From Epilithonimonas zeae (lineage in GTDB: Bacteria; Bacteroidota; Bacteroidia; Flavobacteriales; Weeksellaceae), in the NCBI RefSeq assembly GCF_023278365.1, contig NZ_CP075338.1, positions 3,162,001 to 3,226,000 of the forward strand: DNA of 64,000 nucleotides, written 5' to 3'. The position numbers and the translations under genes were made by a program. The notes under the pieces were generated by a model. That model was not told where the DNA came from. It worked only from the letters and a program-made list of their open reading frames with translations, and searched no databases. Numbering within the stretch: position 1 is the first letter of the stretch; every line of letters starts with the position of its first letter. Of this stretch, positions 29,891-60,407 are shown in pieces.

Positions 29891-29912
29891 TGGCTTCGAG
29901 AGCCTGAGCTTA
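29891..29912. repeat. Single GGCTTCGAGAGCC...CTGAG element
   Basis: GGCTTCGAGAGCCTGAGC lies after the ruvC stop codon (minus strand). The core GGCTTCGAGAGCCT matches the minus-strand element at 37461-37482, and the family resembles the GCTTCGACTCCGCTCAG pairs. Confidence 0.6.
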
Positions 29913-29936
29913 ACAAAAATAATTACTTTTAAGAAA

Positions 29937-37424: not shown

Positions 37425-37460
37425 CAAATTTAAGATTAAATTAATTCTTTTTACACATTG

Positions 37461-37482
37461 TCAGGCTGAGGCTCTCGAAGCC
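37461..37482 (-). repeat. GGCTTCGAGAGCCTCAGCC element abutting a stop codon
   Basis: Read on the minus strand, GGCTTCGAGAGCCTCAGCCT starts within two bases of the NifU gene stop. It matches the motif at 29891-29912. Confidence 0.6.
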
Positions 37483-45728: not shown

Positions 45729-45748
45729 TTAGGGTTGCATCTTTAAAC

Positions 45749-45827
45749 GCTTCGACTCCGCTCAGCGTGACATCTCTAGTATTAAACGGTTTGTTTTAAA
45801 CAGTGTCAGGCTGAGCGGAGTCGAAGC
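45749..45827. repeat. GCTTCGACTCCGCTCAG inverted pair, left of the GIY-YIG gene
   Basis: The arms GCTTCGACTCCGCTCAGC (45749) and GCTGAGCGGAGTCGAAGC (45810-45827) are perfect inverses with about 43 bases between. The second arm is inside the last codons of the GIY-YIG gene. Confidence 0.85.
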
Positions 45828-46140
45828 CTTTATACATATTATCTGAGTGGCTATTATTTCGACAAATAGATAATCCTTTTAATTTCTCCCAATTGTCATT
45901 GATAATAGCTTCCTTTTTCTTTTTACTCCAACCTTTTACCTGTTTTTCGAAAGCAATAGCTTGTTCAATTTCATTAAATTCATTGTATAAAACCAATTGA
46001 ACAGGTCTTCTACTATGTGTATAACTTTCAGGATAATATCCTGATTGATGTTTGATAAGTCGAGACTCAAAATCGCTTGTAACTCCTGTGTAATAAGAGT
46101 TATCAGAACATTTTAATATGAAAAGAAAATATTGTTTCAT
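45796..46140 (-). CDS. GIY-YIG nuclease-family protein
   Basis: The 114-residue protein is a stand-alone GIY-YIG domain. The YFLFILKCSDNSYYTGVTSD start holds the variant motif YFLF...YYTGVT, Arg27 follows in FESRLIKHQSG and Glu64 in NEIEQAIAFEKQ is placed to bind metal. Such small proteins are related to YhbQ and UPF0213. The last residues KGFDSAQPDTV are translated from the palindromic repeat, so the original C-terminus is probably shorter. Both ends of the gene are flanked by inverted pairs of the same family. Confidence 0.85.
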   Translation of the reverse strand: MKQYFLFILKCSDNSYYTGVTSDFESRLIKHQSGYYPESYTHSRRPVQLVLYNEFNEIEQAIAFEKQVKGWSKKKKEAIINDNWEKLKGLSICRNNSHSDNMYKGFDSAQPDTV

Positions 46141-46153
46141 TTTGTGGGAAGCA

Positions 46154-46221
46154 CTTCGACTCCGCTCAGTGTGACATCGCTAATACCAAATGTTTTCAAT
46201 TCCGGTCTGAGTGGAGTCGAA
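46154..46221. repeat. CTTCGACTCCGCTCAG inverted pair, right of the GIY-YIG gene
   Basis: CTTCGACTCCGCTCAGTGTG (46154) and GTCTGAGTGGAGTCGAA (46205) form an imperfect inverted pair upstream of the GIY-YIG gene. The single C-to-T changes relative to the other copies fall in the pairing arm. Confidence 0.75.
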
Positions 46222-46247
46222 TACTTTGTCAATTTAAAAACAAAAAA

Positions 46248-60290: not shown

Positions 60291-60300
60291 ATATCATAGA

Positions 60301-60362
60301 CGCTTCGACTCCGCTCAGCGTGACAACGCTCTAAAACAATGTCAGTCTGAGCGGAGTCGAAG
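60301..60362. repeat. GCTTCGACTCCGCTCAG inverted pair in the paa operon
   Basis: GCTTCGACTCCGCTCAGC (60302) and CTGAGCGGAGTCGAAG near 60347 are inverse arms with about 25 bases between. It begins 11 bases after the paaH stop and ends 45 bases before the thiolase. Confidence 0.85.
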
Positions 60363-60407
60363 ACTATAACTAATCATTTATAGATTATCATTTATCAATC
60401 ATAAAAA

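Follow-up and report, generated by a model that had tools for sequence, protein, structure and literature searches.

Why should a gene for a small nuclease lie between copies of a dispersed palindrome, and take its last codons from one of them? We asked whether the enzyme and the repeat that encloses it are partners.

A GIY-YIG nuclease gene enclosed by palindromes

The window, the whole stretch of 64,000 nucleotides analyzed here, comprises bases 3,162,001-3,226,000 of a single-contig genome of 3.94 Mb. An open reading frame on its minus strand (45796..46140) encodes a 114-residue protein whose sole Pfam family is GIY-YIG (PF01541), matched over residues 4-76 with an E-value of 4.1e-14 and a score of 53.1 bits against a cut-off of 22.6. 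Across 33 alignment rows, Y7, Y17, G19, and E65 are conserved or nearly so and R27 is nearly conserved; we take these to be the catalytic residues of the domain. Profile matches to UPF0213 (PDB 1zg2, E 1.2e-19; 1ywl, E 5.1e-14) involve proteins of the same domain and size, and the AlphaFold model, of fair quality (mean pLDDT 73.5), ranks UPF0213 first among its fold matches, followed by Slx1. By sequence and predicted fold the protein is UPF0213-like. Both gene neighbours, an SDR gene and a gene for an outer-membrane protein, are common to seven loci (L040-L046), among whose names Epilithonimonas occurs three times and Chryseobacterium sp. twice, the remaining two being unclassified; on this basis we treat the genome as Epilithonimonas-like.

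At the 3' end of the gene lies a palindrome dimer (45747..45829) made of two half-elements with unlike stems, at 45747-45772 with its tag on the minus strand and at 45804-45829 with its tag on the plus strand. Both contain exact copies of the 17-mer GCTTCGACTCCGCTCAG (45749-45765, plus; 45811-45827, minus). A second dimer, upstream of the start codon (46151..46225), consists of a half at 46151-46176, tagged on the minus strand, and a half at approximately 46200-46225; GCTTCGACTCCGCTCAG is found here with 1 mismatch (46153-46169, plus) and with 3 mismatches (46207-46223, minus), and we therefore call this right-hand pair degenerate. The inverted pairs that the initial annotation placed at both ends of the gene are thus present, exact on the left and imperfect on the right. 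The protein ends in GFDSAQPDTV, and because the final codons cross the inner half of the pair on the left, GFDSAQPD is, as had been proposed, the repeat in translation.

Further copies noted earlier near 60301-60362 correspond to a solitary same-class dimer in an intergenic gap (60300..60365), with GCTTCGACTCCGCTCAG at 60302-60318 (plus) and, with 1 mismatch, at 60347-60363 (minus). The related copies near 37461 and 29891 are, respectively, a single half-element on the plus strand (37459..37482) belonging to the GARC loop class, which is found on the flanks of a sister gene in locus L032, and a decayed half-element on the minus strand (29892..29915) one base removed from a GARC core. Six matches to GCTTCGACTCCGCTCAG with at most 3 mismatches occur in the window, compared with a shuffle mean of 0.03, and the 16-mer core has 39 matches genome-wide (at most 1 mismatch) compared with 0 for the pattern read backwards. 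No Rfam family matched between 45000 and 61000.

Two other sites deserve mention. A tandem array at genome positions 2710254-2711026 (L013-L015) has a unit of 163-197 bp and contains half-elements of two loop classes; no nuclease ORF was found in this array (2.7102-2.7110 Mb). Where the window has the solitary dimer, five relatives (L242, L244, L248, L254, and L255) hold an insert of approximately 600 bp, in which a small ORF (NENELAKI...) lies between AAACGCAAAGGCGG repeats of another kind.

The initial annotation had also considered that the repeat inserted at the gene and shortened it. We rejected this explanation, since the GIY-YIG domain is complete, the median dN/dS of 0.095 over 91 codons (21 pairs from 7 orthologues, one of which has an in-frame stop) indicates purifying selection, and the tail varies among homologues. 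Among the 78 readable homologues from the best 80 of 206, the core lies within the end of the ORF in 28, no more than 60 nt past the stop in another 28, and in neither place in 22. The FDSAQPD-type protein tails of these genes are explained as translated half-elements.

Architecture of the repeat

Each half-element follows the formula TGTCA-nn-CT-GAGCGGAGTCGA-AG-nn, or its complement, in which the two nn pair with one another, with a stem of approximately 5 bp around a fixed 12-nt loop. The variable stem bases covary: both nn pairs are Watson-Crick in 26/28 half-elements of the genome itself (7 distinct stem dinucleotides) and in 223/274 from other loci (11 dinucleotides). Taken singly, each of the two pairs is formed in 27/28 of the genome's own half-elements, compared with shuffle maxima of 18 and 19. 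Covariation is also seen in GARC halves (5/6 and 44/46) and in CARG halves from other loci (18/22). The next pair outward showed no clear covariation in the genome itself (22 compared with a mean of 20.8).

A TGACA/TGTCA tag follows the stem in 23/28 of the genome's own CTNCG half-elements, and the tags face inward in 10/11 close neighbours from its own loci and in 70/168 from other loci, arrays included. Dimers of one class never have identical stems (0/8 own, 0/68 other, 0/76 together). The pooled shuffle means are 2.5 and 8.7, and the corresponding P values of 0.058 (own) and 0.0002 (other) are too small because orthologous dimers are among those counted. Single half-elements fold weakly and no better than shuffles, while the whole solitary dimer folds into one long hairpin with the variable bases mismatched (-23.3 kcal/mol, z -7.6).

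Association of gene and repeat across Bacteroidota

We surveyed Bacteroidota homologues that were chosen as the best 80 of 206 by similarity to the window protein and are thus not an even sample; 78 were readable, with L063 (2 codons only) and L092 left out. Among these 78, cores occur within 250 bp on both sides of the gene in 58, upstream in 69, downstream in 66, and on neither side in 1. Neighbouring ORFs served as the control, and both-flank cores were found in 2/184; the 96/184 with a core on either side reflect the gaps that they share with the GIY-YIG genes. Core density is 3.37/kb within 250 bp of the gene and 0.28/kb elsewhere in the loci. The 80 loci represent 33 separate neighbourhoods, and in 25 of them there is a gene with cores on either flank. 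The position of the gene is constant inside a genus (clusters of 19, 14, and 7) and different between genera.

Loop and tag change with the protein

The cores fall into three loop classes, CTNCG, GAGC/GAAC (GARC), and CAGG/CAAG (CARG). Mapped on the protein tree, the three classes require two changes, the minimum possible, a count that omits four further rows (3 with another loop, 1 with no core); for each class, 0/500 shuffles were as low. The tree itself is based on 92 columns, has support below 80 at 42/75 inner branches, and lacks L063 and L092. A finer loop label (CTCCG, CTTCG, other CTNCG) requires 18 changes, so that a single loop base does not track the protein. In the genus, all 17 genes of the three classes are flanked by their own class (7 CTNCG, 6 GARC, 4 CARG). 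Own-class flanks were not found at 11 more distant GIY-YIG loci from the same search, one of which has a single core 246 nt away.

The tag behaves in the same way. A sister clade with a YTGST motif (7 loci) has the same kind of hairpin, with a GGT-type tag in 27/34 halves and GTCA in 0/34. Half-elements near non-YTGST genes carry GTCA in 21/27 and GGT in 4, all from L126 and L133. Palindrome loop and tag therefore change along with the protein lineage. That related enzymes are flanked by their own version of the repeat suggests a matched partnership between the two.

Presence, absence, and copy number within the genus

Among 23 same-genus genomes, two of them less than 90% complete, the window locus contains gene and palindromes in 7 and neither in 16 (0 cores); 16 of the 23 genomes have no match of at least 77% identity to the window gene. 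Exact CTNCG copies are present in all 23 (range 6-71). The initial annotation had named genomes with many pairs and no such gene as the case against its proposal, and the 16 gene-less genomes, with 6-46 exact copies, are of this kind. The median copy number is 33 with the gene (7 genomes) and 21 without it (16 genomes; one-sided Mann-Whitney p = 0.20), and we consequently rejected the idea that copy number depends strictly on the gene. The sister class CARG shows a weak association: 58, 40, 17, and 16 copies in the four genomes with its gene compared with 2-24 in the 19 without (p = 0.017), in a class chosen after five of those genomes had been seen. Copy number thus varies weakly with the gene in CARG, and not significantly in CTNCG.

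These counts bear directly on a RAYT-like role, in which the main function of the enzyme would be to copy and spread the dimers as its non-autonomous mobile elements. Such a role would fit a gene that sits inside its own palindromes, the higher CARG numbers, and the behaviour of the solitary dimer, which is present in 5 and absent from 16 of 21 same-genus genomes, three of the absent sites having short undisturbed flanks; dimers evidently come or go as units. It is opposed by the CTNCG comparison and by genome G059, which among the best matches listed for 60 genomes has only UvrC for PF01541 and yet carries 25 CTNCG and 41 GARC copies. We also know of no strand-transfer activity in GIY-YIG enzymes. 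We consider this role unlikely. The initial proposal that the gene acts as a RAYT does holds good for the pairing of gene and palindrome, which recurs across genera and protein clades; mobilisation by the window gene is unproven, since many copies are also found in genomes that lack the gene.

Relatives at tRNA genes and the Y1 transposase

We extended the comparison to small GIY-YIG genes in 60 genomes of the family, using 81 of 95 ORF matches (at least 70 aa) and counting members of one array separately. We scored repeats across the gene against 160 control ORFs and found one above the controls' 95th percentile in 74/81 (inverted 47, direct 61); up to about a tenth would pass this threshold by chance. 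Some genes have other GTCA-tagged palindromes (TTTGTCATTCCG...GGAATCT and CGTCATTGCGAGG...GAAGCAATC). In the genome itself, palindromes of the GTCATTC and CGTCATTGCGAG types adjoin two more GIY-YIG genes, L031 and L033, the latter interrupted by an in-frame stop.

Another group lies 3' of tRNA genes. A same-strand tRNA gene occurs within 200 nt upstream of 21/81 genes, and a copied tRNA piece follows 17 of these 21, a figure that has no control count. A tRNA gene was present at 28/30 loci chosen for their lack of a tagged palindrome, compared with 0/28 others. The genes of L034, L036, and L038 in the genome itself, and of L126-L186, immediately follow the 3' end of a tRNA gene (Met, Arg, Asp, Val, or Phe), and in L143, L147, L155, L165, and L175 the gene and its tRNA piece are repeated in tandem. 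These tRNA-side GIY-YIG genes are tiny cassettes at tRNA genes.

The copied tRNA pieces, the palindromes on both sides of the gene, and the spread of 80 genes over 33 neighbourhoods that differ between genera would also fit a homing-type selfish cassette, whose nuclease cuts the palindrome so that repair copies the gene into the cut. We regard this as improbable: each side of the gene has a whole dimer and not half a site, the 16 empty loci of the genus lack any single intact palindrome, and the place of the gene is constant within a genus.

The genome has one Y1 (IS200-like) transposase gene (L039, 3030945-3031286), which lies beside a GGCTTTAGCC-type palindrome and sits among TTGGCTTTAGCCAA-type palindromes. 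This gene and its palindromes are a RAYT-like pair unrelated to the CTNCG repeat, and the Y1 transposase was rejected as the CTNCG partner since it adjoins a different palindrome. That another enzyme, a RAYT or an insertion sequence, spread the palindromes and they lodged beside the GIY-YIG gene by coincidence is very improbable: the Y1 gene and the repeats that occur without a GIY-YIG gene could be cited for it, but the enrichment of cores on the flanks, the agreement of classes, and the shared presence or absence at the locus strongly oppose it.

A candidate cognate pair

We conclude that the product of the window gene is probably a small GIY-YIG nuclease that targets the enclosing TGTCA-tagged palindrome, the two forming a cognate pair by analogy with Ssn/NTS. 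In favour of this reading we count the cores on both flanks, the match of class and tag, the joint presence and absence, the stem covariation, and the low dN/dS. Against it we count the persistence of the repeat without the gene, the poor folding of single halves, the 18 changes of the finer loop label, and the choice of homologues by similarity to the window protein. In this reading the pairing is an analogue of RAYT/REP in which the enzymes are unrelated.

The enzyme may recognize the tag and the loop when the DNA is single-stranded or forms a cruciform, and then cut, with replication forks, incoming DNA, and extruded repeats as possible substrates. Copies beside its own gene would permit self-regulation, and repair might occasionally copy the cassette or the dimers; on this mechanism any spread of dimers would be a rare by-product.

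More tentatively, single-domain GIY-YIG nucleases in general could be the missing partners of GTCA-tagged palindromes, each lineage reading its own tag and loop, with dimers that need two different stems and parallel lineages that use tRNA genes likewise. If so, two enzyme families would keep the hairpin repeats of genomes, the HuH enzymes and, as the second, GIY-YIG.

Comparison with known systems

A literature search of titles and the opening lines of abstracts found no link between GIY-YIG enzymes and REP-type palindromes. The window locus resembles RAYT/REPIN systems (TnpA-REP; PMC8266576) in that a tagged palindrome encloses the enzyme gene and enzyme lineage matches palindrome; it differs in having a GIY-YIG and not an HuH Y1 enzyme, and the tag GTCA (TGTCA) and not GTAG. 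The window enzyme is no RAYT.

CGTC/TGTC-tagged REPs have no dedicated transposase according to a 2013 survey, which left open the enzyme that serves them (PMC3733652). The REPs described there share with the window repeat a TGTC tag at the 5' end of the hairpin, facing dimers, and unlike stems within a dimer (PMC3733652). Their stem of 8-9 bp and loop of 4-5 nt contrast with approximately 5 bp and 12 nt here, and because of these lengths we do not file the window repeat among them (PMC3733652). A candidate enzyme is now tied, across a phylum, to tagged repeats of the CGTC/TGTC type.

The nearest working model is probably Ssn/NTS of Neisseria, which we take as a lead by analogy. There, a single-domain GIY-YIG enzyme is reportedly matched to a repeat present in hundreds of copies, and many homologues are said to exist, each with its own cognate sequence. 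Ssn is reported to cut single-stranded DNA at specific sites. As with Ssn, a dispersed repeat surrounds the window gene. Unlike Ssn/NTS, the pair described here belongs to Bacteroidota and combines a free stem with a fixed loop and tag in dimers of unlike stems. It also occurs in several matched classes within one genome, which makes specificity testable by loop and tag swaps.
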